Positions 18,040 through 64,000 of a stretch of DNA of 64,000 bases are shown here, in pieces. The stretch spans positions 451,001 through 515,000 of the forward strand of contig NC_092575.1 of assembly GCF_037975245.1 (NCBI RefSeq), written 5' to 3'. The stretch comes from Apostichopus japonicus. Lineage: Eukaryota; Echinodermata; Holothuroidea; Aspidochirotida; Stichopodidae. Every line of letters begins with the position of its first letter. Position 1 is the stretch's first letter. The notes beneath the pieces were generated by a model. It ran no database searches and was not told where the DNA came from. It saw nothing but the letters and a program-made list of their open reading frames with translations. The translations under genes were made by a program, and so were the position numbers.

Positions 18040-21000
18040 TTATATATATATATATATAATTAATATTTGTAATTTAATAAATATGCAAATATATAGAATA
18101 TGCAAGAATTGTTTGCCTGACTTTATGGGAATGGAGTGTATATATATATATACATATACATATACATATATATATATACACTCCATTCCCATAAAGTCAG
18201 GCAAACAATTCTCTCATCCTCTGTATGTCTTAGTTTACTATTTGTTTATAAGAGCACTCATGCCAAAGTGTGAAAATCAAGTTAATGCTACCAGTCGTAA
18301 ATGTCCGAGTATATTCTCGTAAAATTTAGTCCTCTCGTCACTCACTTATTACGTGTGCTTGCGCATTGAGTTCAAACGAAATGGCTTAACTATTAGCACC
18401 GTCCGCGGATTCGTTCACTTTGGTAACATCATACTACGGTAATTTCACGCAATATTTTTCTTTAAAATGTGCGATACCAATCAAATTCCAAACCTAATGA
18501 AACCCTGCAGCTACGTGCTTTTAAGCGCAACGTTATTTGGTGTTCTACTAGGTAGTTTTAAAGGAATTGACCACCAACCACAAACAGGATTTTAAATAAC
18601 GCTATGATAGGACAATGGTCGCCTCAAGCTGCTCAAGAGTGATCGTATATGCTTTGGTCACTCGCCCTCCCTAACCCCCTCTTACCCCACCCCTATAGCG
18701 ATATAAGTGAATATACAATTCCCCTCACGATGAAGTGGGTGGGGGGAGGAGAGGTGTGTACCACTAGGTAGCTGATCTTGTTTCATTTCTAACAGAACAG
18801 CACCTTGTTCCTTTTCTACTAATGTTTCATTCGTGTAACTCACCTGACCACCCCGCTTTGCAATGTTCCGTACATTCTGACACTGTGACGCATTTCTTAC
18901 TGTCCATTGTCCGATTCGGGTTTTTGTTATTTCTTGAAGTCACCGGAAAAGAAGAGGGCCCCGGGGGTTGGGGGTTGGAGAGAGCGGTCATTTTCCTACC
19001 AGTATGTAGTAATAACTACTTTACCACAATCGGTTTCTCTCTTAACAAACCGATACGTGATAATGTTATTTCAGTGTACGAACATTTCCCTAAATTTTAG
19101 TTAGATCTTTAAATGAAATAACTAAGATCTTAATGAAATATACTAAATCAAAACTATTCAATTATTGATATTGAACGACAAACATCCACCAAAAGTGAGT
19201 TATTTTGCAGCTATAGAGTAACATATGTCTGGGTGCCGCAGTGCCTTTCATATCCAAACCTACAGCCTGTACATTCATGTTAGGATCACTATATCAAACT
19301 GTGGACACAATATCTTTCAGTTTTCTTGTTTCAATTAGTTGTGGATCATCAGTATACATCTGGTCCAGGGTAGCTTTAAAACGAGCCCGGAACCCAAATT
19401 AGTCACCTTTTTACCGAAAAATATTTTAATCAGAAATTCCGTAGCTGAACAGGGTCGTAAAATAGGAGTGGAAAAATAACTTTCATCCATATACCAAAAA
19501 CGATTGGCTGTATGTGCGAGGGTTGAATGGGGTGGTCAAGATACAGAGAATGAAAACAGATTTTGGGGGGTTTTGATAGGCGAGCGAGGTCGTTGTATTG
19601 GCTTTAGAGAGTAGTGACAGATATACGAGGAACAAAACCTTCCTACCACTTACTAAAAACCTAGCTTTACATTGATTCTATAGAGGAAGGCCGAGTCATA
19701 ATGCAGAGGTCATACCATGGTCCGCCCGATGATAATGTCTTTTCGCTGCCGCTATTTGTTCTTAGGTTATGTTTCTGGTCGTAACTCAGATGGTTTCCGG
19801 GTCGAACTGGTTCCCGATGACAGATGTATAAGGTACTGTTGGTGTCGATTGGTTATCATCACTGCTAATGAGTAGCGTACAAATCCCAACCGTCATAAAC
19901 ACACAATCGTTATATTCAATATTTTGCGTATAAATATACTCAGATCTGTTACATGCGCCATTATATTTTCAGGGATAAAAATAGATTTGGCACTGGATTT
20001 GGCATAAGTGGATATCGTTAGCAGCGCTGCAATATGCATTATATTAAAATGTTCTCTCCCCCACTCCCACAGGCACACCGTTTATCGTCGTAACGTCTTG
20101 GTTAACTTAAGTTAGACTAACGATGTCTTGTTAAAAAAAAAATTGTATCTCTACTTGTGGATCCCCACCCGTCTCACTAATCGCCCCCCCCCCCCCCCAT
20201 TACACACACAAACTTTTCATGCCAAACTACTTTGAATGAAAACCATCCAAGTCGTATACTAGTAGTAAGCAGGCGGAATATTCAGAGATACATTCTCTTA
20301 ACTGGCATTTCTCGTTTTTACAGAATTATTTGGGTTTATTGTATTTAGATAAAATGCGGTCCTGGTCAACTGTGTGCTTGTGTTTTCCTTTATGCGATTT
20401 TTCGTACATGTTGTTTCCATTCTGTTTCAACAATCAACATGTTTCGACAGTTGTCATAAATAAACTCTTGAGGTGCAAACGTTGTGGTTTCTTCTTGAAT
20501 GAGGCTTCTTTCGCCCTTAAGTTCAGGCTCATAACTTCTCTAACCAAAGACTTGTGAGAGTATTAATACTGCTAATCCTCAAGAGATCAGAGGGATTTGA
20601 CGAAAATGAACCTCAAAGGTACACAAAAAAAGGCAGAAAAGGGTATGTAAACCGACGAAAGTAGGACATTGTTTTACCGCCCAGTGGACACCTAGAAAGC
20701 GTTAGTTTATGGGGGTGGGTGGGGGAGGGGTGTTTGCTGACCTATTTCAGTGGCGACCTGATCACCACTATGACTTTCTTCGTGAAAATTAAACTACGCT
20801 CTGAGAACAATGTTTGAGAGCAAGCTTATGCGATTGATGTAGCATACCATGTAAATTAAAGGTACTTAAATTTAGTATTTTGGTAAAATTGATGTTTCAG
20901 TCTAACACATTTTTCACTGATGGTAATCGCGCGTCGATGAGTCATATGTGGTTGATTAAATTTATAATGAAAAGCAACAAATGAATCGATAGATGAATAA

Positions 21001-24000: not shown

Positions 24001-27000
24001 AACTGATAATATTACTGCAATAATATTATATAGTTAGGCCTGAACATAAAAATGAAAGTGCTTCGTAAACTTACACAGTTGAAGTCATGTTTTGAAAAAA
24101 ACAATAATGAAAGGAATCAATAAGATTTAAATGTTCCACAATTCCAGTCAATCTTTTACTTCATGAATTCCAATTGGGACAGGTGGGTGGGTGTATACTA
24201 TATAGTCTAACAGGTGAGGTTCATCGTGTAATATCAGGTGGGTTTAAATTATAAGACCCCCATCTTCTCTGTATGGCCCTATACTGCATAAAGATGTATC
24301 TATTTTCCTTTGAATCGCTCTTTGATTAAATCATAAAAAGCGATTACAAATAAAGCGTAATAAATAACGTTGTGACTGCCCAGGTACATAAAACTTGGCC
24401 TAATTCTAAAGCTATGATTTATCTTCGAAATAATCTTAACCTATTTTCAAAAACCAACACAACCCCGACTTGCACTTTAATTCCTCGTTGGATAATTTCT
24501 CTTCTTAAATATTTATTTGAAGTCATCTTTCGTCGAGAGGCTTTAACTGCTCCATTGGTTTTACTCTTTTCTTCTTCTTCGGAGAATCGTAAAATCTGCG
24601 GTAAAGTATCCCGTGTACTCCGGTTAAGGGATGCCGAGAATGTCCGCTCAAGATCATACACTATGTATCTTCAGTGCAACTAATACTAACTTACATATAC
24701 AAATTAATAATTAGGTTTTTAGTTCCCAAGAGTGACTGACGGAAATGGATGTATTCTTGTATGTTGGTTATTTAAACGTTCAGGTAAAAAAGAGAGCAGT
24801 TATATAGCACGCTATCACTGCTATCACGGTTACGTACAAAATATCTTACTCGGTTACGTACAATGAGCAAACCGTAATGTACAATAGATAAAATGATACA
24901 GGCTATATACTTAACAATAGTACGGTGGATACGAACAGTTACGTACAATAAACAAAAGTTTTAAGTACAACTGAACAAAGGTTTTACAATATAACAGTAG
25001 TGCACAGGAAACTATCTGAAACGTGAGGGGTGGGGGCGGGGGGGGGGGCAGGAAACCAGTGTAATGTTACTTTGTATACGCGACGTTGGCCTATATCGGA
25101 TATTGAACTTAATTCCAAATATTGTATGACAAACTTTATACTTTTTGTTTTAATTTAAGAAGTTCCGTGTTTCATATTTGTTATATGTTTGACCAAACTT
25201 CCCTATAGTTGAAAAAGGGAAGCTGTAGTATAAATATACTGCCCCTTGTACCTATGCCTATGTCAAACAAACGGTTACCTCCAATTGATATCACGTAGGT
25301 TACGTTCAATAAAACAATCGGTTACGTACAAATATAATTAACGGTGAACAGTTACCTACAATAGAACAAACTGTTGTGTACAAATAAGGAATCAAACGTC
25401 CACACGATTGGTCTCGTTTGAAACAAGTTGAAGAAGAATATGAAGCCATCAAGTGTAGAAACAGTAGATAAATGCATACAAAAGTAAATATTCCATACCC
25501 CTTTTATATTCTTAACTATCATAATTCCGTGTTTAATCTTTTTTTCTTTTTTATTAAACACAGTGCAACCTTTCAACATGAACGGTCCTTACTCGGAAGC
25601 TATCAAAGAAACCGCTATAGAACGCCCTCAGTCCTCTGAGTCCAACGACGCGTCACCTATGAGCAGAGACGAAACCGCGACACCGAACACCGGAGGGATA
25701 TCCGACAACGACAGGAAGGATAACCGCAATAGCGATTCACTAGATGGCGATAGAGATATGCATACACCGTCTCCGAAGAAACCGCGGTTAGAAGACAAAC
25801 CGATGAGTGGAAAAGTAGCAACTGTCGAGGCAAGACTGGAGATGAAACCGCTCTGGGATGAATTTCATTCTTTGGGTACTGAGATGATTGTTACTAAAGC
25901 AGGCAGGTAAGAATGGTTTAAGGATCACACTTGAATGTTTGGTTTATATGACGTGTTCTAATCGATTAAATTAAAGACTTTGCTGGTTTACATGTATTGT
26001 TGCTGTATGGGTTTACTCCAGGCTTCTCGTGGTTAAGTATATTCATGTCCTCCATATCTTTGAGAGAAAAGCACTCATATGTTCTACAGAACAGTCTTGT
26101 TCATTAATAAACATCCCTCGCCCCCCCCCCCCCTCATTTACACGCATGTGTGTATGTATAATTGTTGCTCCAGACCAAGAGTGAATGGGGAGGGGAGGGG
26201 GCCCGTCATTGTCCCTGCCTCTTCGTGGTCCTATTCCATAACCTGGGTTTTTCTTTATTTACGACTTCCTTGCTTTTTCTCGCTATATGCCAAGATTAAC
26301 GATAAATATTAATCACGCCCCATTTACGCCCAAACTTGGCATTTTGAAGGAAACCCGTAGATCTGCATTAGGTAAACATGAGATTAATCCATTATTGTGA
26401 CTTCTGTTACGCAACAGATGGCGATGTTTAAATTTAAACATATTTTAGAGGTGGGAGGAGGGGGGGGGGGGTTCTCTCAATTATTTCAAATGCAGCAAAT
26501 GCAGTTATTTCGCGTGTGCTGACATATAGCTCATATACATAGATGAATATGTACATGGTAAATTGGCTGTATGGCTTACAAATTCTACTTGAACTTACTT
26601 TCGTAATAACTGAGTGACTTAGTACTGTATTAAGTTGTCATTTATTACTACTCCCGAATATTGCTTGGAGAGCTTCGTAAACAGTGCCTTTAAATAGAGA
26701 ACATTCTGGCAAACGGTCACAAATTTCCCACAAGTAGCAGATCTGCTCTTTCACCTATGAAGCATAAATAATTAATTTGATATAATACGTACAGCCAATC
26801 CCTCATAGAAAGTTTCCTTACACTGTAAACATAATCTAGTCAAGATGACTAGAGTACATTAGTCCAGACAATGCTTCTATCGACCAATTAATTCTAGTCA
26901 CTTGACTAACTTTTGGTCCAGTGACCAAATAGTTCTGGTCATATGACTAAGTAAACCTGGTCACATGACCAGTTTTTACTAGTCATTCAATTATGCCTCT

Positions 27001-30000
27001 ATCGACCAGGCTTTAGTCAAGCGACCTAAACGATTAGTCAAGATGTCAGTTGACTAATTCAATTAGTCACATGACCAGTTTTTACTAGTCATTCAATTAT
27101 GCCTCTATCGACCAGGCTTTAGTCAAGCGACCTGAACGATTAGTCAAGATGTCAATTGACTTATTCAATTAGTCACATGACCAGTTTTTGCTAGTCTTTC
27201 AACAATGCTCTATCGACCAGGCTTTTGTCAAGCGACCTAAATGATTAGTCCAGCAGTCACTTGACTAATCCAGTTAGTCTTGCCCATGGATAAAAGTAGT
27301 TTTTCTATACTAGTTTAATATGACCCACCACGGATTCGAACCTGCGACAACTCCCTTATAGGTACAAAGCTGTCTGTTGAGCTAACTGGTGGGAACAATT
27401 CTTGGATATAAAACCTGATTGGGCCTTAACCACTGCTAGACCATCAAGCCCTCTCACATGAAAAAAAGAAAGCAAGAATTTCTGTATTAATTTGGAATCA
27501 CATTTTATATTTTCTCTTAAACACTACATATGCTTCACCTCAATAGTAAGTACAAAAGAGTGTCTGATTTCATCAGTAATTGAAGAACCAGAAAACCCAA
27601 AGGTTTAGTGGTTCTGATGCCGATGAGAGTTTATGAAATAAGATAAGTCAGAATTTGTTATTGTTATATACCTGTATTGTACTTATTGCCAGACAACTGA
27701 AACCAAACTGAAGCTGATCAGACATAAAGTTGTCAGTTGCACTCATGAATATAAATGAAATTTCAGTTTCATGTGGCACTACTGTACCAATCTACCAAGT
27801 ATGAAGGTGATCAGACATATATTTGAAAAAAAATATCGACATTTTAAGAATTTGATTACAAGCCCCACCCACATATTCATGTACTGGACAACAAAAACAA
27901 TGAGGTCCATGTAATGATAATGTAGCATACCTACAAGTTATTCAATACATTTACAGTAATTAAATTTATTGTTTTTAAGATTATACATACACTTGCAAAC
28001 ATGCTAAACTGTAGATTACCTGGCCATCGTAAACAAAACCAAAAATTAATGCCTTTATTGATGTACATATAAAGTTGAAAAAAAGTGATATAGTTGACTC
28101 TAGGCATTTCACCACCCCACACCCCCTCTCCAGACAAACACATGGGGATCATACGACACAACCCATATCCCCAACCCAGAGCGGAACCCTTACCATCATA
28201 CCACCTGCAGCCTCACCTACCATCCTACAACCCTGATCCCAACATCACCCTACTCATCTGACAACCCCCCCCCCCACCTGACACCCATCAGATTTTACCA
28301 GTTTCACACCTTACTACCAACACATTAATCTACCCCACTCACATAAGATTTCCCTATACTCTATAGGTACATGTACAGTAATACCAGATTATTAAGTTCA
28401 TTTACTATTTTCACTATAGACTATCCCTTTAATTGTCTGAGCCAGCTATTTATGCAACATACATATACACACATACCCACACGCAAACTTGATCAAAACA
28501 TACAAACATGCCAACTGATCACAACATACACATATGCCAACTTAATTGCAAAGGTTACTTTTTTTTCAGTCCAGTTTAATTTGTCACTGAACTACTCCTT
28601 TAATGGCCTGGCTAGCCAATTTCATGGTTTTATAAAGCAAAACAAATATAGATAAGATCATCAAGCTCCCAGGAACCAGGAAAACATGTCAAACGTGACG
28701 AATGACAGGAGGTTAGGAATGAGGGACAACAAATGCTATATGGCCAACAAACACATGAATATTAATGAGGTTACATGTTATTTTCATATGAAAATATAAC
28801 TATTATTATCCACCACCAATCAACAAAGTATGGAGATGATCGGTTATACCGTTGCAAAGTTATTGACATTTTAAGAATTTCACTTTAACTGCTGCCTACT
28901 CATTAATATTCATGTCATGAACAACAAAAACAATAGGGAACATCTACTAATCATGGAGCATGTACTAGTTCAAAATGACAGTAATTCAACATTTAATTTC
29001 TAAGATTTCAGGTTTACAAGCTATTTCTAGCAATTAAGGATTAAGCCCCACCGACTCATGAATATTAATTAGATGAAATTCCATTGTCATGTGACAATGA
29101 ACCACTTACATCACCATACCAAGTATGAAGCAGATCGGACATACCGTTGCGAAGATATTGACATTTTAAGAATTTTACTTTAAGCCCTACCCACTTATTA
29201 ATATTCATGTGATGGAGAACAAAAACAATAGGGACCATCCACACATCACCAGTCCAATATGACATTGATCCAATGTGTCGTTGTTGAGATATCGTGTTTA
29301 CGAGCAAGCTGTCACATCACACACACACACACACATGTTTTGTGTTTCGTTCAGACCGAGGACCCCATTGTATTTTCCATTGTTCAAATCCACGTACCGT
29401 AACATTAACAATACCCCATACAATAGAATTCTTCCGAGGACGTGGTGATTCTTTAGAAATCACAACCGAGGACCTGAAATTCTTTTGTTCAAGTCCTCGG
29501 TCAGATAGCAAAACAAACGCATACCTACACACACATGTTTCCATTACATTCAGACTGAGGACCCCATTGTATTTTCCATTGTTCAAATCCACGTACCGTA
29601 ACCTTAACAATACCCCATACAATAGAATTCTTCCGAGGACGTGGTGATTCTTTAGAAATTACAACCGAGGACCTGAAATTGTTTTGTTCAAGTCCTCGGT
29701 CAGATAGCAAAACAAACGCACCCTCACACACGCCAACTTGATCGCATAGGTTACTCGGCCTTCGGCATCGTAACCAAAAATAACAACATTTTGTAAGTCA
29801 AAACCAACACACGCAACAGCTGAAATGATAATGAAAAAATTTTCAATGACTTATTATTTGCAAGTTAGTTACAGTTTTATAACACCTTAGCCTATTTTGA
29901 TATATATATGCTAGTGCAATTGATAGGCAGTATTCTATGTTATAAATGTGATGACAGTTTGAGCCAAAAAAACTGTACAAAAAATGGTAGGTGCCTGGAG

Positions 30001-33000
30001 CAGTAATTAGGACATCAATTTTTAGCGATTTGCATGTTTAGTTTCTCCAGAATTTTATTGACTGATTTATCTGCCGGTGTAGTATCATCAACATTCAAAA
30101 TTATTTTTTTAAAAACTGAAGGGTTTTCTTCAGCAAAGGCTCTATGCCTTATTTAGGACAGAGAACACTGCCAAATAATTGCACATGGCTGCGAACAAAC
30201 TTTTCAAAGTAGCTACTTGCAAGGTTTCCACTATCACAGTGTACTCTGGAACACCTTCATCCTCTGTCACCTGGATATAAACTGGCACGTCTGACAAGTC
30301 TGTAACCTGCAAAGATATTAAGGTATATGTATTCAATATACAGCGCTTTCCAGTTTCAGAAAATGGGAGGGGTGGCTGATTCACCATGATGGCCATGAGT
30401 GACCAACAAACAAATATACTCCACCAACGAAGGAATCAAAATAAATAATTCCTTAAATATTTTTTCAAATCAATTTACAGTACATCGTATTCACTACAAG
30501 TAATACTATTTTTGATGATATAAATAATAGCAGAGTATAAATGAAACAACAGAGCTAAATGGTGCACTGGTTCCGTGTATTTTAGAGAGAAATGAATATT
30601 TGCCATGAGTTATGACATCTTGTTACAGCTAATTACATCATGGTAGGGATTCATTCCACTAGATGATTTTAATACACTTGGGGCTGATCAGGAAATCCAC
30701 ATTGGGTTATGGTTACTGCAACTACAGATTGAAATCTGTCCAACATTCTGTTCCAGTTATCACATACATACTAGTCTATTCTACCTTTGTGATGATGCCC
30801 TTACTATATTTACAGCTATGAACACTCCCAGGTCATACATGTGATGTTTAGTTAGGGAATAATGATCAGATGTGCGGGCCTTTGTTGCAGACAGAAGGTT
30901 TTCAGGGCCCAAATATTTCAAGGCCCCCCAGAAATAAGGATGCCCAAAAATGCCCCCCCCCCCCAAAAAAAAGAAGAAGATGCCCCAACAAATGTTAGGG
31001 CTAAACCAATTTTAGGGCAAATTTGTATGAAAAGTATCATTTTGAGTGATTTCATAAATTGGCCCATATGGTCTACAGGTGACTTAGGCCCCCAAATCCT
31101 AAAAACCCAAGGAGGCACTACCTAAGTACCACTGTGAAAAATGCTCAACACTGCACCATAGAATTCATAGGAAAAGAAACATTTTGTGTGATTTCAGGCG
31201 GAGTTCAGGAGTTCAAAATGGCCCATATGGCCCATACATGACCTTTGGCCTAAAATTCCAAACACCCCAAAGGAGCACTACCAAAACACTATCGTGACAA
31301 TTAAACTCTAAGCATTGTGACCATACAATCTGTAGGAAAATATTTATTTTGAGTTATTTCCTGAAATAGCCCATATGGCATCAGACCTAAAATTGCTGAA
31401 TACCCCAAAGGAAACACTACCAGGGCACTATCATGATGAACCCTCGACACTGTAACATACAATATCAGACCACCTCTGATGGCCTTGACCCATAGTTTAC
31501 ATACTGTTGATTTAAATAATACATTGGGTACTTACACTATCCTCATCTGCAAATACAATCATAGCACCCAACTTCTCATTCAGTAGAGTCGGAACTGACA
31601 GAATTGCTGCATGCATTCTAGACTCTAAAAGAAAAATCAACAACAGAATGTTAAAGCACTCATAACATCATGACATTTCAGAAGAGTGATATTATGTCAT
31701 ATTTGGTAACATCGATAGGACAAAAATATCACAGATTCACTCATCTGCAGTCCGGAGAGCAATACTCAATACTCGATAAATTGCTTAGGTGATAATATTA
31801 AAGTAGAGTACTAAATACATCACAGGTCTTATTTTCAGCTAAGATATTTGTATCATTTGATAAGGTCTAGGCTACTTAGCTAAGTAATATCAAGTATGAG
31901 CTCAACCCAAGCAATCACCTTTAAGTTATGCCAATTGTTCAGTTATTTGTCGTGGGCCCCTACTGGCATGGGCCATAGAAAATGATTGCATCCATGTCAT
32001 TGTTTCAGCTTGAGGGATTCAAGACAATGATAACTGATAAGGAACATTTGAAGCAAAATATAGAAACATTAATGGAAAAATATCAAATACTGAGATTGTA
32101 TTGAAAGAGTTGCTCCATTTGTCAAGAATATGTATCAGTTGTCAAACTCGTATCTTGGACCCAAAGCAGATAGGTTTCATTGATACCTACAGATTCCTGA
32201 AGTCCGAGAACAAGTTTTCCCGGAATTAACAACCATATATCATATCATGAGGTCTTCAGTAAAATGAAGATAATAGAGAGCAGACTAGCAAGCAGATTGA
32301 CACATGAAAATTTGAACCTCAGGATTCAGCTGGCAACAGAGCATGTTCAGTGTGAAAGTTGAACAAGGAAGATATTATTTGAGAATATGCAGACAGTGAT
32401 AAATTGAAATGCCTCTTGTTTCCAAAGTAGAGTAAGTAGACTAGATTTCCATATACTCAGCTTGTAACAATGTAACATTGCATCATATAAATGGATCAAA
32501 CTGCATATCGTGTAGCCTATAATACATATAGGCATATAGGGGGAAGTGGGGGCAGGTTGTCACATACCACCTACTTCCACCCATGGATTTGCATATTGAA
32601 CAATATATTTTTGGAAATTGGAATAGACATTCTATATCCATATCCATAACTTCAAACATGTTATAATAACCTTAATAATAATAAAACGTTTTTATATAGG
32701 GCATTCCGTCCAAGACCACAATGCTGCAATGCACTGCACACAGAAAAAATATAATTATACAAAACATTACCCATATTGCAAATATAAATGCTAATTCAGA
32801 GTTGAGTTTTTAATTTTTTTTTTAATAATCGAATAAATTTTGCAATAATCAAAAGTTCAATTTCCTCTCAAATGTTACCTAAATCTTCCAAAAACATCTA
32901 TACCCACCCATATCACATACGAGCAGTCAGCCCAATGATTTAATTTGATTTCGGGACAATCAAGGGAAGTCAACAGTCTTGAATATAATTTCAAAATTAG

Positions 33001-36000
33001 GCCCTATATCCCCTCCACTAAGGGGCCCATGATACTGTACCAATTTCCCTTTGTTGAACACAGACACTTGTTTGTACCAAATGAAGTACTTCACAGCCAT
33101 AATTTATGCAATCTACCGTCAATACACAGCCTGTCTCGTTATCATCTGAGCACTTGATTGTGTTCATCCATGATCATATCTGGCAGTCTGGGTTATCTGT
33201 GGTACAGGGTCTTTCACAGGGTCCATCCTGATCCTTATTCTACTGAACTTAACTGAACTCTGAGGGGATTCTAGCAGGCAATTTCTAGAATTGTTCAATT
33301 TATTTTAGCATGATAGGCCTCATGCCATACCGGTGTATGTGACAAGGATTTTTCTCCCTGAAAATACACCCCCCCCCCCCCCCCTAGATTTACTGAAATT
33401 GCTTTGATACTTGATTGAGACTCTATTTTATAAGGAACTGCTTGATTTCAGAGAATATGCTGACCACAAATTCAACTTTTCCTGCCAAGAATTAGAAAAG
33501 TGATTTAAATCAGTGATTTAAAAAAAACCACTGATTTAAATCAGCATAATTTAAAATCACACAACCCTCTGCTAGTAAGTCTTAACAAGGTCCTAAATGT
33601 ACATATAGATTTAGCATTTCAAACATGTGGTGGTAGTTGGTTTCAGAGTTTAGCAGCTGCTGAAAAAAGAACTCTCACCGTAAGTAATGGTGCTGACATT
33701 TGTACAATAAGTGTTGTAGCAGCATTTGACCTGAGAATATGTACCGGTTCATTGATATTGAGAAGTTTACATAGATAGTATGGAGCAAGTTTATTTAATA
33801 TTTTGTAGGTCAAAAGCATTAACTTACACATGATACGCTTCTTCACTTGTAACCAGTGGAGATTTACAAGGATGGGGGTTATGTGTTCACACTTCCTAGA
33901 TAAGGTAACCAACCTGGCAGCTCGTACAACGCTGGAGCTTATTTGGCAGTCCATAAATGAGACTGTTGCAAGAGTCAAGATGTGAAGAGACAAATGCGTG
34001 CACTAGCCTTTTAGTGCTACCACAGTCTGAGTATGTACGGATGCGCCCTATTTTCCTCAGACTGTATGATGCAAGACGACAAACGTTAATGTCTAATGAA
34101 GGTGTTTATTTTTCACTACCATACATCTGAATGGTTATACCCCCTCACCAAGACATATTTTGCATCCACCCCTGCCTCAGACTTTGCTCGTAGTCCATTT
34201 TGAAGACCCAGCACATACCTGGGTGATGATCACTTGAATAGTGAATTACAGATTGAAGTGTTACTAATGTACCTTAACGGGCACCCTCGTCCTTCTCCAT
34301 GGCTGTATCTATGACAGTGGGATGCTTCATCTTCAAAGTGCAGCGGATTATGGCATCTCCATACTTGGAAAGCCCTTCACCAAGCAACTGTGCCATTGTC
34401 GTCTTTCCTTCAAGTCGCTTTAATTCAAGTAGTATCTATGGTTAAATGAGATCAATTAGATTATACAGTACATATGGTAAATTCACCTGAGAAGTTAAGA
34501 GATCGCTTAGGACTAACACATATTCGGGATTATGTTCAGAGACGTAGATTGAGATGGTTCAGACATGTCGAAAGGGATGGAAGATGCGAATTGGTAAAGA
34601 AGTAGAGAGAGACTACTGTAGCTGGTCAATGTAGGAGCAGTAGGCTCCCCAAGTCTTGGGATGAGGACATGAGGTTTTGCGGAGTGATCTTGCTGATAAA
34701 GGTATAGATCGGGCTCTAGCTCAGAATAAAACAAAGTGGTTTTCTTTTTAAGGGGGAACATCCCCCTACAAATTCCCAATAGCGGTATCAGCAAAAAAAG
34801 TGTGGGAATCCTGCAATCGCGCTGCTTAGCACAACAGTCTTGAATTGATTTTTGAAAAACAAAGTCGTGGTTCGAACAAGTGGTGGGCATAAAGTGAATA
34901 TATTCAAATGTCCATAACTTTTGAAACCACAAGATTGAATTTTACTTTTACACAGACTACTGTATAATAAATAATATCTACAAAGACATATTAATACAGT
35001 ACCTCTTCATCTTCAAATAGCCAAGGATAGACTTTCTTAACCACTTCGCTAGTAGCATCCTCTTCCACAATTAAACGACGTCTATCTGCCAATGTGATAG
35101 ACATACAACTTTTGTTATTTGTTCACATCCCTAATGTTCATGTGCATATTTTGTACAGCATGTGGGTAAACATGTACGGTACGATACCAGTCACAATTCA
35201 ACTATTTAATCACATCCCATTACTAAAATGTACAGTAGAAATGGAAGTGAAATTACTATGCAGTGATGCAGAAGCCTGAATGCATTTGATACCTGTATGG
35301 AAAAGAAACATGTGCAAACATTAATCAATCCGCTATGGTAGCTACATTTTCATTTGTCAAGTGTACAATGATAACCAAATACATTTATGTTTGAAATTGT
35401 AGTATTTCCAAAAAGTTGAATGAAACACCCCGTAAAAGATGTCCTATTTTATTTCCAATGGAATTAGGGTTAGCCTAGGGGGATCAACTGCGGTTCACGG
35501 TACCACAGGTAAAGCGAGGAATATTCCATCTTGAAAAAAGCCTAGTCCAAGGCTATATGACTCCCTACAAACAACTACAACAAATTAAACACCCACCCAC
35601 CTTTGTTCTGAATCGGAACTGTTTTGTACAAACTTAAAAAATAGCAGAAAAAACTGTCCCAACTCATGCCGCTAGAATATATAACAAATTTTAGCCAAAA
35701 ATTCCGGACAAGTCAGTGCTATTGTCCAGAAATATTCCCCCTCTATATTACTGACAACTAGGCCTATAAATTGATATGACACAGCTGTGGCAGCAATAGG
35801 CTGTTAGATTGCTCCAAGGTCCCCAATGTTTATTTTGGAAGGGGGAGTGTATTCTCCTGTGAATTGTTAACGGGATTGTTGGATAGGATGGTCAGTGGAC
35901 AAACTGGTAATAAAAGATTGGCGTCATGTTCAGTTGATGTTTCGTATGAAACATAGGCCTAGCCTCTGTATTTTATGAAAACTATTTAGGGCTAGGCCTG

Positions 36001-39000
36001 GGGGGGGGGGGGCTATAGGGCCCTAGGAATAATCAGCTTATTTAGTGTAACAGTTTTGCACGCAACTACACAATCCCATACACACTATTCTAGTTAATTC
36101 GTTATCTTAGGGTGACCCTAATTGGAGGCTAATCCTTAACTCAAACCTAATCTAGATATAAATAATATGGCCTAGGACCTAAGCCTAGGCTATGTCCCCC
36201 CAGAAAGTGCAGGAGAAACACTGCTGTGAATTTATCCCCCTAAAATATTTCAAGAATAATATAGCCAAGGTACCCCTAAGGCTAAAGTTTCTAATACAGA
36301 TTATAAATATTAAGTTTAATTTAGGTTTGTTATTTTGTAAAGAAATTATCCATTGCAAACATGAGAAACGCGTGAATACCGGGGCCACCATGATACTGTA
36401 AATATACGGAGGCCTACTGTTACGATAAACTGTGCTGTACAACTACTACAACTACAAGGCAGCTTAACGTCATTAGGTTTAACGTTAGGCAATTCGCCTA
36501 TAGCTACTGCATGATAGGCCTAGCCTATGACCTAGATCTTAGCTTGTTCGTACACAAGTTGGAATAATCCTAAATACACACTTTATGGTCTAATATATTA
36601 TATACTTTTTAAGTGACTAACAAACGACACTGGCCAAAGGCCCAAAGAAAACTGGTCTAATATACTAACCTTGCAATGGTTACTGACAATATCACTGGAT
36701 GATAATATTTTTTTGATTTTTCGTACCGTAACCGTCTGGCTGCTAACTCCCTGCTGTACGTTCCTTGCTCGTCGTGTACGTATGTGTACAATGTACTATA
36801 GTTCAGTGCAGTACGCTAGGCCGTACCGTGGCGCTACAATTGTTAATATTTTCCCGCGCTTTTTCATGTGACGAATATATCAACCTGATTGACTAGTGAG
36901 TTTCGTCCCAGTGCTGACATTTATTGTAGGACCAGATTAAAATAGAACTGTGACCATTATGTTCTGGTCAGGCGACCTTTTGGGTTAGTCGTGAAGGCAT
37001 CTCTACCAAGATTATGGCGGGATAATCGTTGACTAACGTAAACCAGTCGATATGACTAGACTTTAGCCTCGCTTGACTAGATTGTGTTTAGAGTGTACCC
37101 ATTTGTAATTTATAGGAGAACGTTTCGAGATAATGTTAAGCATGTGCCCAGAACGGAACGATTAGTTGATGTACGCCATTTTGAATTTGGTTTGACAGAA
37201 ATGGAACAAGGAAGGTTCGACGGCTCAAAGTCAACTATAGGTTTTGCGCGTATCAAGGGGTTGGAAGGGCTGCCTTGGGTCAAAGTTCATTTTCGGAATC
37301 TAGGCCACGATTGGAGTCTAGGGAATTTGATGAAATTTCTTGTCAACTACGTACATTAACTTGTCCACACAACATTGAAAGCGGGGCTTATCTTCTACCT
37401 TTCTTCTATCATTGCAAATAGATTGTACAAAGGAACCGCTATTTTGGTAAATATCATGAGGGAATTACCATAGAAATAAGGACAATGGAATCTAATTATT
37501 GTTTGGTTTCTCTTCAACGTGTGCTTGTATATTTATTGGTCATTTAGATCAATTTTATTAGGATTTAAATCGAACAATTAGGCCAAAGGATCACAGGTTA
37601 CTCGGCCAATTCTATTTAAAGGTGTAATTCGGTAAATCATTCCGTGTATAGTACGTGACCTCATCAGAAGGAAAATTATACATAAAACTAAATTAAAGAA
37701 GCCAAACATAATGTAATAAATTGCATTTATTTTAGCGTGCAGTAATAAAAAAAAAATAGACAACTTTACTGTTCTCTAGAGGGAATTCTTCATCTGTTCT
37801 GGTGTATTATATAAAAAAAAAAAGATGTTCAATAATTTAGCAGAACCCGTCATTTCAAAGAGTTCATTGTCTGGTATATAGACTTTAGTAAAATGGTAAT
37901 TTCATAATTCTTAATTCAAGATTAAATGAAAATATAAAATAAGTCTGGCCTATTTTATTTTAAAGTTATCGGAGCGTCAAAATGTTGATGGGATATCTTG
38001 ATATACTTCTATGTTATCTAAGGTAAATACGATTCGTTAATTTATCTGAAGATACGTGATTATACAAAGAACCATTGACAACACTACACTGCGTCTAGTT
38101 CTCAGAGGGGGGGGGGGGGGATGTTAATCCTACATGGAGGTTTCGTCACAAACGAGCACGATGCATGTATGAGTACAGGCTTATAGATCTTGGGCCTGGC
38201 ATGATGTTACAACCCACATAGATATAAAATACATTGCTTTCTACTGACGTAGAGTGAAGTGAATTTATTATAGTACCTAGGGACGTACACGACTTTTCAA
38301 TGTATCCTTAAATGAAGTAATGGCCGCAACAAGCACGTTTTGTTACTGTCATGAAATGCCTTCGTAATACAACAATCTATTGTAGAACTGTTCAAGTCGG
38401 TCCAGGCATAAATTAAAATCATTTATTGGGAAGTAAAAACTTCTGCGGACTCGCATCATCTACTTTATCAATGACAGATTTATGGCATATCACTAAGGTT
38501 TCTTTATGTCTTACATTTTTGAATCTTAATGAGCTGCGTACACGGTCGTGTCACGTGAAGGTAATGCTTCCTTGTAATAGACTGAGAGACCAACAGCTAA
38601 TTTTAAACTATTTTATCACAGCTTTAAAGTCGATCTCATATAGTTTATTTTGAATACAATTGACGAAGTCGAAACTTTAATTGAAAATAAATTGTCAACA
38701 ATGCATTCTTTATCGATATTATAGAAGCCTATCACGACAGGTAAATAAAGACGTTTAAGTTAAGTTTAAACGTTGGCAAATGTCACGCCCGGCGTGCCAT
38801 AAGGTTTGGATAGGTCAATTAAATGGAATCTGCGGGCAATCATGAAAGCATCTGTAACCAAAACGAAAAGAAACGACGTGCATTAAGGTCTGACTTGGTG
38901 ATTCTACGTTCAAGGATAAGTGTTTGGATGTTAGCTAGTTTTGTTTAAATACTGTGTAAACTTTTAAAAAAAATATGCTTAGGTGAATCTTTGTTTACAG

Positions 39001-42000
39001 TTATTATGTCGGTCACGTCAAACTCAGTTTTGCAATTAAATCGAGTCAACCCGAGCTGTATGACAGCCAAGTCAAATGCGACCAAAAAAGGGTATTGATA
39101 AACTCTTCTTGTACACAAGTTTACCTTATTAATATTTATCTGTTGACAAGAAAATTATGGAAAGTAGAAAATAATAAAATCATCCAATGAAAATAACCGA
39201 TAAAAGCGATTTGTCTGACCAATCCTATGTTTTATCATTAAGAAACCTTTACTATTCATTTTCAAGATTTTAAATAAATTCATTTTCTGATACTTTTTTT
39301 TTATTGGGGGGGGGCAAGATATCCACAGGGACTCGATCGTTATCTGTTTTAATGATAAAATTCCAATTTTCATTCTGTAGATTTTGTTTTCTAAAATACA
39401 CAAAAGAAAAGTCATAAAACATAAATAGAAAAAGCGTAATAAGAATTTGAGTAGATTCTTAGTGCAGTGACCGCTGTTTGATTAGGCTATATCAATTTCT
39501 AGTCTTTATGATCATCGCTCACTTAGGGAATGCAGGAGCTGTGCAGGGAATATCATTTTAAGTCATTTGAAGCCTCAAGCAGTCGCTACTGTTTCGATGC
39601 TACCGGCAAACTGATTCCGCGATTTCGCCTTGTCGAAAGATTGAGGATTTTAGTATGGTTAAAGGGAGATCCCGCAGTACGACATAGACGTTGTGATATT
39701 GATTTCCTTTGATTCCAAGTATCTCTAAGCTATATGTGTGTGTGTGTGTGTTTTGTGAAACTATAATACATTTTGGATAAACATTGAACTTTTTTGATGG
39801 ATTGTCACGTGCTTAGCATCCAGATAACCGATGGATATCTTTCAAAACCGTTCTAGATGTCATAGACATTTTCGGATAGCGAAATTTGTTTTGTCTCGTT
39901 TGGTCAGGAGTATCTTAACTTGTATATATTGCAATTATCGGAAAGATCGGTAACTCTTAAACTGGGGAACCTTGTATTCCATCCACTTGATATCACTTGA
40001 TATCCACTTGATATCACTTAATATCACTTTATTTGTTATCGATGTGACGCGAGACGCAGTCTTCAACAACAGTAACAGAGAATAACTGTTGTGGGAATGT
40101 TGTGAACATGTGACGTCAAACGTCAGATTATCTCTGTTAAACATTGCAGCGGTAAGCATGCGTTATGAACACTACAGCAAAGGCAAACAGATACAAATCA
40201 ACTTAAACTTTCTCTTAAGAAGAATGGTTCTATGGAAACAAATGATTGATTGTTTGGCATGCATACCCCTTTAAGTTTGTAAGGTATCTCTCTCTCTCAA
40301 TCAAGGAGCCTGTTTGAGTTCCCTGCCTCAATCTTCGTCTCTGTTCAGTTGGAATACAGATCAAGTTCTCATCGTCGCCTAATACTCAGATCAATCGGCC
40401 AACACAAGTCAGATTTGGGAGAAAGATATTCCCAAATAAAACTCGAGAGGCCAGGAAAGATTAATTGAACCCAGGCGATCACTCTGCCCCAAGGCTAGTG
40501 TTAGAAACGGCGTCCATTCTTCTCCGTATCATAGGATAGTCAACAATTGACTGCCGAAATAGAGGGAGTCATATGAACCGCTGGCGATGACAGGAATCAG
40601 TTAACTTCGTAAGAACTTTGAAAGTCCGATGCAAACTTTCTTTGTAGTAGTAACACTTCAAAGACAATTTCACGTTATGATTAACGTTAATGTCATTATC
40701 AACACAATTACAAAGTAGAGCTAAAACAAATGTCATACATCATCAATTAATTCATAAACGTAAAAAATCATCTAAAATTGTTTCATAAAAACAGTAAAGC
40801 AAATCTTGAAGTGATTTCTGTGTAATAAACACTTTGTCTTGCACTCGTGACGTCATATGTCGTCTTGGTGAATACAGAGTCTCGGATAGTCACATTGAAT
40901 ACATAGTCTTGGATAGTCACATTGAATACATAGTCTTGGATAGATCATATATGTTCCAACAGATGATAAGATTATTGACATGTCGGGATGGGCTTTCACA
41001 ATTGTTGTTTAGCTTCGCTGATCATTGGCGGTCAGCATAAACTGGAACTAAGTTTTTCCGATCATCATCATTAAGATAATGTTATAACCTTTTCAACCAG
41101 CAAATGGGGATTGCTAACGACCATAACAGTAAGATCCAAGAGTAGAAGAGGATTATAAATATTTACAGCAAATACTCAACTTTACGTGGCTACACTCCTT
41201 GTCACAATTATTCAAATATACATATAATTAGGTTCTATTGGTGTCAGTAGTGTTCACGCTAATGGTGTCAGCAGTGATCATTCAGTTCGCATAATCCGAC
41301 TGGTGTCAGTAGCGGTCAATTTATTTCATCTATAGATGATCTATCACCGTGTCAGCAGTGATCTAATGAATTCTCCTAAACGGGCGCATTGGTGTCAGCG
41401 GCGTTTATATAACTTCACCTATATAAAAATATTCGATTGGTGTCGGTAGTGGTAACTATTTTATGACAAGATGGATGTTGTTGCCTGCGTTAGTAAATGT
41501 ATCACAAAGTTATGAATTGCACGTGATTTTCATGTTTGTCTCCATCTTTTCCTGGCAGGAGAATGTTCCCTACGTTTCAAGTTAAAATGTCCGGTATGGA
41601 TCCAATGGCAGAGTATATTCTACTAATGGACTTTGTCCCGGTGAGTTTCCGTCACCATCGGTTGGTTATAATACAGTAAAACAGAAGACTATAGCTTTAC
41701 AACAGAGCGACTGCATAGATGGTTTCTACTATTTTAGAAAGTTTATTTCGAGGCTTCGTTGTATACCACTATTTCTTATTTCATTTGCAAAGTTTTGAAT
41801 TTATGCCTGTTTTTGGATTATGAGAGAGATAATGTTTTCATGGATAATGCCGTTTACAGGTACATGATCTGTTCTTTAATGGTTGTGTGTTGAGAAATGC
41901 TTGTAGATATGCGTTGTGCAAGATTGTGTTGAATAGGTTGATAAACTGAATGAAACAAACAAGAATGCATCAGTTTTATGTTTGATGTTGTAGGTGGATG

Positions 42001-49259: not shown

Positions 49260-49990
49260 CAGCAGGTAGATTTTGTACTTAGATCTAAGCAGGGTTCGAT
49301 TCAGAATAATCCAGGTAAACATTGGACTTAAATTGAAGCAGGGTTCGATTCAGAATAATCCAGGTAGACATTGGACTTAGATCTAAGCAGGGTTCGATTC
49401 AGAATAATCCAGGTAGACAATGAAGTTAGATTGAAGCAGGGTTATATTCAGAATAATCCAGGTAGATATTGGACTTAGATTTAAGCAGGGTTAGATTCAT
49501 AATAATCCAGGTAAACATTGGACTTAAATTGAAGCAGGGTTCGATTCATAATAATCCAGGTAGACATTGGACTTAGATCTAAGCAGGGTTATATTCAGAA
49601 TAATCCAGGTAGACATTGGACTTAGATCTAAGCAGGGTTCGATTCAGAATAATCCGGGTAGACAATGAAGTTAGATCTAAGCAGGGTTATATTCAGAATA
49701 ATCCAGGTAGATATTGGACTTAGATCTAAGCAGGGTTATATTCAGAATAATCCAGGTAGACATTGGACTTAGATTGAAGCAGGGTTCGATTCAGAATAAT
49801 CCAGGTAGACATTGAACTTAGATCTCAGCAGAGTTCGATTCAGAATAATCCAGGTAGACATTGAACTTAGATCTAAGCAGAGTTCGATTCAGAATAATCC
49901 AGGTAGACATTGGACTTAGATTTAAGCAGGGTTAGGTTCAGAATAATCCAGGTAGATATTGAAATTAGATTTAAGCAGGGTTAGAGTTAA
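49260..49990. repeat. 49 bp minisatellite, ~14-15 copies
   Basis: Unit: AGCAGGGTTCGATTCAGAAT, then AATCCAGGTAGACATTGG, then ACTTAGATCTA. Copies differ at a few fixed positions (GGTTCGATTC versus GGTTATATTC; ATCTA versus TTGA), giving distinguishable unit types that alternate along the array. Confidence 0.93.
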
Positions 49991-52231: not shown

Positions 52232-53240
52232 TGAGTAGAGAACATCACACAACAGGTCTTTTGACTTTTAGTGAAAGTATATAGACCTTAAACCACATCG
52301 CAGAACAGGTCTTCTTGACACTTAGTGAATGTATGTAATAATAATAATGGACACTTTGTATAGCGCCGGTATCCGCCCGAAGGTGCTCATGGAGCTTTGC
52401 AGAAACAGCAGAAATAGGTTACATAAATGAAACTTGGAACAGGTAAGTTCTTGAAGTTTCCAAGGCTGTTGACAAGTATAACTGATTGAGGTAAGTTATT
52501 CCACACTTTTGTGGCTGCACACAGGAGAAGGATATCTGGACCCACCGATTCCTTGAAATACGATCCTGTGTATGGTTGTACAAGTTCTGACAGGTACATT
52601 GGTGCAACATTATTGAGAATTTTAATAACGAAAAGAGCAGTTTTGTAAATGATCCTCTGTTCAACCGGCTGTAACCAGTGTAATTTGTTCAAAATTGGAG
52701 TTATATGGGAAGCTGCTGAGAATAATGTGATTAGCCTGGCAGCACAGTTTTGTATACGCTGTAAGCGCTGTAGTTGAGATTTAGTGATGCCAAATAGGAG
52801 TGAATTTCCGATGTCAATCTATGTAATGAAGGCGTGAACCATCAATTCCTCTGTTTCTTGGTTAACATATCGGCGAATACGGCCAATGTTCCTAATTGAT
52901 AAACAGGCATGATGTAATGTGGCTCTCCTTTGATAGGGATGAGTCCAGAATAACTCCAAGGTTACGAACGTTTGAAGATGGCACAATGGTTATATTACCA
53001 ACCCTAATGTAAGGGATATTAACCTTTTCAAGTTGATTATACCGCCAGTCACAATAAATTCAGTTTTTTCGTCATTCAGTTTTAGGTAGTTTTTTTTTTC
53101 ATCTATTTCCGAACATCATCTAAACAGTCTTTAACCACATCGCAGAACAGGTCGTCTTGACACTTTATGACTGTATGATAGCCTAAAACCACATCGCAGA
53201 ACAGGTCTTCTTGACACTTATAAGTGAATGTATGTAAGCC
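52232..53240. repeat. 52 bp tandem array interrupted by a LINE fragment
   Basis: Copies of AACCACATCGCAGAACAGGT plus CTTCTTGACACTTAGTGAAT lie at about 52,232-52,336 (two, the first diverged) and 53,129-53,240 (two). The ~790 bp between them is a LINE 3' fragment. The array was probably continuous before insertion. Confidence 0.75.
52337..53128 (-). mobile_element. 5'-truncated LINE fragment (CR1/L2-like), minus strand
   Basis: Minus-strand reading: LKLNDEKTEFIVTGGI near 53,040-53,090, then after breaks CAARLITLFSAASHITPI-like sequence, LNKLHWLQPVEQRIIYKTAL and LNNVAPMYLSELVQPYTGS, then KVWNNLPQSV. This is the order seen at the end of CR1/L2/Rex reverse transcriptases. The 3' end shows GCGCTATACAAAGTGTCC followed by ATTATTATTATTA, typical of L2/CR1 tails. 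It is multiply broken. Confidence 0.82.
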
Positions 53241-59600: not shown

Positions 59601-62600
59601 ATCGTGCGGGCGATGTGTGATAATACACTGCACAGAACATATTGTTAAAATAAAACACTTACATGACATTGAAATTCCCTGGAACATGTACACATGCTGG
59701 AATATAAGCTTTCACTTTGCATTTTCCCATTTTATTACTATAGAATATTTATGGTCGAGAATGGATCTGAAATATTACTTTGAGAATTTCAGTGTCCACC
59801 TGACTCGGGCGGAGGTAAGAGACGCCATTGAGAGGGCGTTTGAACTCTGGGCTCGACACGCCCCTCTTACATTTCGTGAAACAGATGATTCCAGTCAAGC
59901 CGACTTCACGATTAGTTTCAATACTGGTGATCACGGGGACGGGGCGCACAACGCATTCGATGGACCTCGTAAGTACCAATCACTCAATGGCCACTCACAA
60001 TTTGAAATTTGAAAACAGAAAATGAAACTATAGGTGTTTTCCAAACCAATTTTTCATCACAGGTGGAACCTTGGCGCATGCGTTCTATCCAGAGGACGGA
60101 CGAGCCCATTTCGACGATGAGGAAGATTTTACTGTTAGATCATATAATGGTATCAACCTATACATTGTTGCTGCTCATGAATTCGGTCACGCGTTTGGTT
60201 TGGGACATTCTGACGTCCAGGGGGCCCTGATGTACCCATGGTACCAGGGGTACGTGGAGAACTATGAACTACCCGAGGATGATATCCAGGGCATCCAACA
60301 GATGTATGGTAGGTATACACTTACATCAAATACATTTGAAACACCGATAAACATTAGAGTGTAATGGCGTCATTGGCAGTGTGACGTCATAAGACAGATA
60401 AGTTGTTTCCATCTTCGAATTTCATTTATGTTTTGCTCAGAATTATTTATTGGATTACGACTTACATGAAGTAGGCCCAATACATAATCGATTGAAGAGA
60501 GCTCTGACGTCATTTCTGCAGATATTCCCTTTCCATTATCATATTGGTCTTGGCAGCAATGAGTCACCGCAAAGACCACAACAACTCGGCAAGATTTGTT
60601 CCTTTATAAAGATTTGATATAAAAATCGATTGAAATTAGAAAGATATGATTTGTGCTTAATGGAATCTTCGCAAAATGCAGATAATTTTGAGATCTAAAA
60701 CGTTATATTTTGTTGACTATTGGTGATAACTTCGTCATATAAGCATTTAATTTATGTGATTATATTCTATGAATGTGTGAATATAAACATAAACACAATG
60801 TTACGAACAATCTATGCATTGAATTTATATTCCAGGTATTCCACCCGAAGAAGAAACCCCGGCTGTAGCGTCTGGGCCTGGTCGCACGGGGGAGAACTTA
60901 CCTGACACTTGTACCAGTCCATGGGATGCCGTAGATCAATGTATGTGTGGTCACTTAATGTGTACATATAGTACAGAACAAACCATATTAAACATATCAA
61001 ACATTTGTGTTTGCTTGCACATGTAAATAATAAATATGTGTCATTTGTGTAAAGAAATCACTTTCACGCCGTTTTATGGATTTGTATCGAAGGTTGTGAT
61101 CTCTGGTAACACGGAATGAAAGTTGGTTTTAACTTGTAGCACTACCAAAGACCTGATTGTTAAGGATCTCAACCAGTTAAGGGCTGAATTGCTCAGTTGG
61201 TTAAGTAGGCCTTGTAATTATGAAGTCACTAGTTTGATGTCTGCTTGATCTAATTGTTTTCTCTTTCAAAAAGTGTTTATAACTTCCCATCAATTTTCTA
61301 TTAATGATTTGCTTTACACTATTTTACGCAAAAGACTTTTGGTAACTAAACTTTAAACTATGTAATATAATTATATAAAAAAAAAACAGGTCACAGGCAT
61401 TCATTCGAACGAAGTGAATTCAGTATATTTAAGAAACTTTTGCTAAATCTTGACTTGACATTTGAATTCTTTAGCATTTGATGCCAAGGTGTACGCGTTC
61501 AAAGGAAAGCACCTTTGGAGAATAAGGAACAACGGCGTCGCCAGTGGATTCCCAAAGAAGATTACTTCCGTGTACAAGGGAGCTCCAAGCAATGTTAACG
61601 CGGTTGTGACATCAAAAATTAATCAAAAGACTTATATTTTCAAAGGTAAGTTCATAGAAACTGAGCTGCTAACTCTGTTTTTGTTTTTTTACGGTGTGTA
61701 TTTACGTCATTGACAATGTCACATGTTACGATAAAGCATTTGATTAATAAGCAATTAAACAATCACAGAAACAACACACAATAGCAGTCATAACTGCAGT
61801 CAAAACACTCTTTGCTTTTTGCCCCCCTGCCAAAAAGGGGGGGGGGCTGAAGCAACTGCCAATAAGGTAATTAAAAGGGTATAACACCCACTGTTTAAAC
61901 AGATATCGAGGGCACATGCGTAGTATATCTATATTTTTTAGCACGGAATAAAATCAGTGTCGGTTAGGTTTTCATATTACTGTAGTAAAGATATGTTGTA
62001 GAAGCCTTTATTATTTATCAGGTTACTTGCAGCGTTATTCTGCAGTGCAATGAACCAGGATTAGCCGCAGCAATGCAATGAAGAGGTATTAGCCCCAGTA
62101 ATGCAATGAACCAGGATTAGCCCCAGCAATGCAATGAACCGGGATTAGCCCCAGCAATGCAATGAACCGGGATTAGCCCCAGCAATGCAATGAACCGGGA
62201 TTAGCCCCAGCAATGCAATGAACCGGGATTAGCCCAGCAATACAATGAACCAGGATTAGCCCCAGCAATGCAATGAACCAGGATTAGCCCAGCAATGCAA
62301 TAAACCGGGATTAGCCCAGCAATGCAATGAACCAGGATTAGCCCCAGCAATAAAATGAACCGGGATTAGCCCAGCAATGCAATGAACCAGGATTAGCCCC
62401 AGCAATACATTGAACCGGGATTAGCCCAGCAATACAAGGAACCAGGAGTAGCCTCAGCAAAACAATGAACCAGGGTTAGCCCCAGCAATACAATGAACCG
62501 GGATTAGCCCCAGCAATGCAATGAACCAGGATTAGCCCCAGCAATACAATGAACCGGGATTAGCCCCAGCAATGCAATGAACCAGGATTAGCCCCAGCAA

Positions 62601-63829: not shown

Positions 63830-64000
63830 GTGAGTATTACAGCTGCATTCGTGTGGGGTGGTGATGGCAAAAAACACATATTCAAGGTTAATGCCACGGC
63901 TGCTTTCGTGTGGGGTGGTAATGGCAAAATACACATATTTAAGGTGAGTATTTCAGCTCCTTTCTTGTGGGGAGGTGATGGCAAAATACATATATTTAAG
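63773..64000 (+). repeat. 57 bp in-frame tandem duplication of the hemopexin exon end
   Basis: Four copies with start points at 63,785, 63,842, 63,899 and 63,956, an exact 57 bp (19-codon) period. Each reads as (T/S)A(A/P)F(V/L)WGGxGKxHIFK. The first and third copies are followed by GTGAGT, the second by GTTAATG, and the fourth ends exactly at the window edge. The whole block has no stop in the MMP frame. Confidence 0.93.

Follow-up and report, generated by a model that had tools for sequence, protein, structure and literature searches.

The window analysed here, a stretch of 64,000 nt from Apostichopus japonicus (NC_092575.1), contains a plus-strand T-box gene, one intron of which (25907-41558, 15.6 kb, delimited by its splice sites and T-box exons) hosts a large element bounded by terminal inverted repeats (TIRs) at positions 26821-37095, hereafter the window copy. 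The host exon at 41994 finds human TBX1 as its best match (PDB 4a04, E 4.8e-34), while the numbering of the intron as intron 2 depends on a candidate upstream exon near 13.5 kb. Inside the element lies a multi-exon gene on the minus strand, antisense to its host. An initial annotation of the window had proposed a TIR-bounded, CACTA-like and gene-carrying element within an intron of a Tbx1-type gene. Both the intronic setting and the element are borne out by our analysis, which confirms that the window copy is one member of a recently active transposon family whose complete copies carry the same small spliced gene.

The TIRs of the window copy, 26821-26844 on the plus strand (CACTG...) and 37072-37095 on the minus strand (CACTC...), are identical at 22 of 24 positions, and both start with CACT, exactly as initially annotated. 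Each adjoins a TA dinucleotide (26819-26820 on the left, 37096-37097 on the right), and counting it raises the match to 24 of 26 positions; the third flanking base differs between the two sides, as do the flanks farther out. No other inverted pair matching at 24 of 26 positions occurs in the window at spacings of 0.5-20 kb once low-complexity pairs are dropped, and none arose in any of 12 dinucleotide shuffles. The dense GACTA/GACC half-sites noticed earlier inward of both ends correspond to a single motif, TRGTC (T[AG]GTC / GAC[CT]A). The left subterminal array (26845-27300, plus strand) contains 29 half-sites in 456 bp, the largest background count being 9, and includes a 106-bp unit in three tandem copies (26960-27279, plus strand). 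The right array (36880-37071, minus strand) contains 7 half-sites in 192 bp, while background windows of the same length average 0.43; none of 1068 windows outside the element has 7 or more, and none of the interior windows tested reaches 7. At the left end, 7 pairs of half-sites face each other at a spacing of 4-5 nt, one of them starting inside the TIR, and the array would fold strongly as a single strand (z -6.84). Similarity between left and right stops at the TIRs: when the subterminal regions were aligned, 24 of 200 shuffles did equally well.

Searching the whole genome (671.6 Mb, 35 contigs) for further copies with both ends in inverted orientation, a check called for by the initial annotation, revealed 29 such elements, the window copy included. 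The right 500 bp was found at 29 places (all candidates scored), and every one of them pairs with an inverted left end when the two lists are matched by hand. The left 500 bp occurs at 30 places or more with at least 95% identity, 28 of them nearly full length, among the best 40 of 60 candidates scored; ten further matches at 68-69% identity belong to a second family, family B, and were excluded from the element count. Candidates for independent ends, which would have spoken against a single element, are a single unpaired left end (C17:23685312), compared with the 29 pairs, and 19 weaker TIR-like places. The latter were retrieved with 1-2 mismatches by a TIR pattern search that first returned the known places, with CACTG on the left and CACTC on the right in all of the first 20 places listed; at 3 mismatches the background is high, with 338 and 374 matches against 160 and 149 in controls. 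Paired spans range from 9312 to 19561 bp, 21 of the 29 falling between 9.3 and 10.7 kb. Twenty copies were fetched and read along with the window copy, to which they are 96.5-98.6% identical over the aligned parts. The exact 21-base left end is found in 10 of 10 copies. Of the 16 copies whose right end could be reached, 15 have the exact 21-base sequence there and one shows a single mismatch. Substitutions relative to the column majority amount to 0.6-0.7% in the interior and 0.2-0.3% at the ends. These elements of roughly 10 kb make up a homogeneous family rather than a local capture, and the low divergence among its copies suggests a recent burst.

The earlier hint that TA represents a target duplication holds as regards the length of the duplication but only in part as regards its sequence. 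Matching 2-bp flanks surround all 16 copies with both ends in reach, and these are TA in 11 cases, CA in 3, AA in 1 and TT in 1. The right end of the five other copies read (c7, c1, c17, c7d and c3a) lies past the 12.1 kb fetched, and the TA/TA reading of copy c18 is less certain since its outermost bases are mutated. Copy C16:3962638 offers what appears to be an empty site: two paralogous repeats, which share 77-78% identity with the flanks of this copy once these are joined, cross the junction with a single dinucleotide, CA and CG, respectively. Another copy lies within a 20-bp tandem array, with CA on either side. Such paralogous empty sites support the occurrence of one insertion. Judging from these flanks, the elements most probably insert by cut-and-paste with a 2-bp duplication for which TA is preferred, not required.

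The multi-exon gene initially placed on the minus strand is represented by four exons, namely exon A (35003-35085), exon B (34285-34435), exon C (31536-31624) and exon D (30142-30306, ending here with the stop codon found in the window copy). Their phases are compatible and their splice dinucleotides are conserved in 20-21 of the 21 copies read: the donor GT of exon A in 21 and its AG in 20, the AG and both alternative GT donors of exon B in 21, the AG and GT of exon C in 21, and the acceptor AG of exon D in 20. The alternative donor of exon B ends the exon at 34273, after an in-frame TAA that is present in all 20 copies with a readable frame. Exons C and D are present in all 21 copies read, and the genome-wide search covered exons A and B, each of which gave 29 matches, one per element (all 70 candidates scored). 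No match to the exon A+B protein was found in the genome outside the 29 elements at E 0.001, all 58 matches lying inside them. Together the four exons code for only about 160 residues; no N-terminal exons were found. In Pfam the predicted protein finds nothing up to E 10, and its best PDB match has an E of 0.22. It may resemble the C-terminal part of fish "SAMD3-like" proteins; the literature on SAMD3 with transposons yielded nothing useful. Between exons B and C, a repeat-derived protein tail on the minus strand (33646-34002) matches another tail in the window (52390-52818, minus strand; BLASTP E 2e-16), and Pfam gave only a sub-threshold DCA16 match (E 0.017). The two tails share 56% identity over 55 aa, and we take both to resemble the C-termini of LINE reverse transcriptases. 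Queries built on the gene, on the LINE-like tail or on the TIR returned nothing useful from phage, plasmid, viral-contig and prokaryote collections.

No transposase was recognized inside the element, in agreement with the initial annotation. Pfam searches of 112 open reading frames (ORFs) of at least 38 aa from the window detected no transposase family, only 20 weak matches from E 0.012 upwards, and a NCBIfam scan of the element interior gave two weak matches. The longest ORF is 142 aa in the window copy and 205 aa among the 21 copies, the latter in a stretch unaligned to the window copy; none of the ORFs that the copies share could accommodate a transposase. Elsewhere in the genome, 20 Transposase_21 matches, several in open frames exceeding 800 aa, indicate that CACTA-type transposases exist in this organism. 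The best of these matches is at C11:3835198-3835650, in an open frame of 880 aa. None of the 20 lies inside the 29 elements, the genome search being limited to Transposase_21.

Family B shares with the elements the start CACTGTAAACA and the TRGTC half-site motif (parts read: L057:121-1900 and G000:C7:3195444-3200290). Its left ends number at least 40 at 96% identity or more, among the best 40 of 93 candidates scored, and its coordinates suggest a length of about 4.8 kb. One family B copy has its right end within an element copy on C7; the adjoining TA occurs singly and without interruption in 13 other element copies. At the TA where family B sits in copy c7, copy c16a (L011/L012) has about 340 extra bases, meaning that this site was hit twice. 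The two parts read, which come from two different copies, contain no ORF longer than 101 aa, and none of the 8 ORFs scanned with Pfam, out of 16 of at least 60 aa, reached the cut-off. The two families thus share one end motif, and a transposase was seen in neither (for family B, in the parts read).

We favor, with a probability of roughly 0.72, the interpretation that these elements form a large family of CACTA-like DNA transposons of about 10 kb, which move by cut-and-paste and depend on a transposase provided in trans. What is observed comprises CACT ends paired in inverted orientation, an array of half-sites next to each of them, 2-bp target duplications with a preference for TA, nearly identical copies at many places, and a gene that has become fixed in these elements. 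A transposase or helper protein would bind the TRGTC half-sites, pair both ends and excise the element, which would then be inserted at a 2-bp staggered cut. The family would be non-autonomous, and its minus-strand gene, presumably transcribed from the right end leftwards, would travel as passenger or accessory cargo. Several observations weigh against this scheme. The 10 family B ends and the 19 TIR-like sites tested have no Transposase_21 match within 20 kb, and that search found no autonomous partner with the same ends. The ORF and Pfam scans would both miss a transposase whose coding sequence is spread over numerous small or diverged exons. Facing half-site pairs are absent from the rest of the window, right end included, and the fold of the right array is not unusual (z -0.56). 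Finally, an empty site outside a tandem array is available for one copy only.

How the gene came to reside in the elements is a separate matter. A captured fragment of a host gene, carried passively as in plant Pack-TYPE elements, has a little less than an even chance; it bears on the origin of the gene alone and is compatible with a family mobilized in trans. Such a fragment would agree with the recovery of short exons only and with changes among copies that appear near neutral, the exon differences comprising 12 synonymous, 16 non-synonymous and 4 stop changes for a neutral expectation of 28, 69 and 3%. Since introns are retained, any capture would have taken place at the DNA level, and Pack-TYPE elements can acquire DNA through tandem insertion and re-mobilization (PMC8903248). 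However, no donor gene could be detected with the exon A+B protein, although the exons are short and a well-diverged donor would be missed.

The gene could also encode an unrecognized protein of the family's own, be it a transposase that has diverged or a helper that binds the subterminal half-sites like TNPA in maize En/Spm; this would make the family autonomous or one half of a two-part system. We regard this as unlikely. The restriction of exons A and B to the elements, the intact splice dinucleotides and the compatible phases all argue for a working gene, and the substitution frequency in exons is half that of the remaining gene region (0.0032 versus 0.0062, shared changes being counted more than once), but the balance of synonymous, non-synonymous and stop changes stays near the neutral expectation. 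Likewise, in protein-like composition each exon outscores all but 1.7-7.6% of stop-free windows; as the known T-box exons score no better (0.23-5.37 against 3.77-7.40 for exons A-D), this score, computed from amino-acid frequencies, is weak evidence. The reading frame itself argues in the other direction: besides the conserved TAA before one exon B donor, 5 of the 21 copies, including the window copy, stop early in exon D where the 16 others read at least 11 codons further, and some copies have additional stops. The short length coded by the four exons and the absence of any recognized catalytic domain likewise speak against this reading. Equally doubtful is a related possibility in which the spliced gene, encoding a member of an uncharacterized protein family, is a long-term accessory gene of the element and no captured host fragment, perhaps a reader of the half-sites, with the transposase coming from a separate partner element.

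Affiliation to another superfamily favoring TA, such as Tc1/mariner or a Harbinger-like TA lineage that merely resembles CACTA, is improbable. While 11 of the 16 duplications are indeed TA, the other five rule out strict TA insertion, and the half-site arrays together with CACT/AGTG ends fit the CMCT clade (PMC12730594). That the ends represent unrelated dispersed repeats or a pair of separate insertions, conceivable for a single copy with flanks sharing only TA before the genome was searched, is refuted by the pairing of all 29 right ends, the 96.5-98.6% identity of 20 copies and the matching flanks of 16 out of 16.

The trans-mobilized family favored here would thus work like a CACTA element, with CACT ends, subterminal arrays and cut-and-paste movement, but its formal membership stays unproven as long as these ends lack a linked transposase. 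The TIRs start with CACT, and the strict CACTA core is absent, the fifth base being G or C where plant CACTA/EnSpm elements such as soybean Tgmt* have A (PMC2613891). Short-motif arrays in both orientations are found at both ends, with facing pairs at the left only. Tgmt* likewise combines CACT ends, imperfect TIRs, large size, insertion in an intron and asymmetric subterminal arrays of direct and inverted short motifs (PMC2613891). Unlike the elements described here, which have a 2-bp duplication in 16 of 16 copies and no recognized transposase, it generates the 3-bp duplication of plant CACTA elements and encodes its transposase.

A 2-bp duplication is instead shared with the CACTA-related TRC elements of animals, SmTRC1 (PMC1636069) and Spongebob (PMC4298943), which also possess TIRs. 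In SmTRC1, this duplication was reported for 7 of 14 copies. The ends reported for TRC elements start with a CCC core (PMC1636069, PMC4298943) whereas ours start with CACT, and the Transposase_21 protein encoded by SmTRC1 (PMC1636069) is not found in our elements. Fungal ESTA elements and the CMCT clade show CA..TG termini in most lineages, short duplications of 2-5 bp (TA for ESTA) and lineages with accessory genes (PMC12730594). They are fungal, and their accessory gene is a TET/JBP dioxygenase. Pack-TYPE and Pack-CACTA elements similarly enclose gene sequence between transposon ends and lack a transposase (PMC8903248), but they are described there in plants and defined by their matches to coding genes, while no genomic donor was found here with the exon A+B protein, for which distant donors would be missed.

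The window contains other repeats as well. A perfect local inverted repeat lies beside an (AT)n run at 18105-18212, and tandem repeats with units of 49 bp (49263-49982, about 15 copies), 28 bp (62048-63238, about 43 copies) and 57 bp (63781-64000) were found. The 57-bp unit resembles the end of a coding exon followed by a splice donor (GTGAGT), and upstream of the array, at about 59.5-60.0 kb, there is a match to matrixin (M10 peptidase). A tRNA gene suggested by eye near 27330-27400 was dropped, as ARAGORN and Rfam found none.

The reports cited here place gene-carrying CACTA-type elements in plants and fungi (PMC12730594, PMC8903248). The present family may already be catalogued in Repbase. 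In this animal genome, 29 or more copies, nearly identical and about 10 kb long, carry a spliced gene, two exons of which are unmatched elsewhere, and they are accompanied by a sister family. Two questions are thereby made testable, namely which transposase moves these elements, and whether the gene they carry is cargo or part of the machinery.

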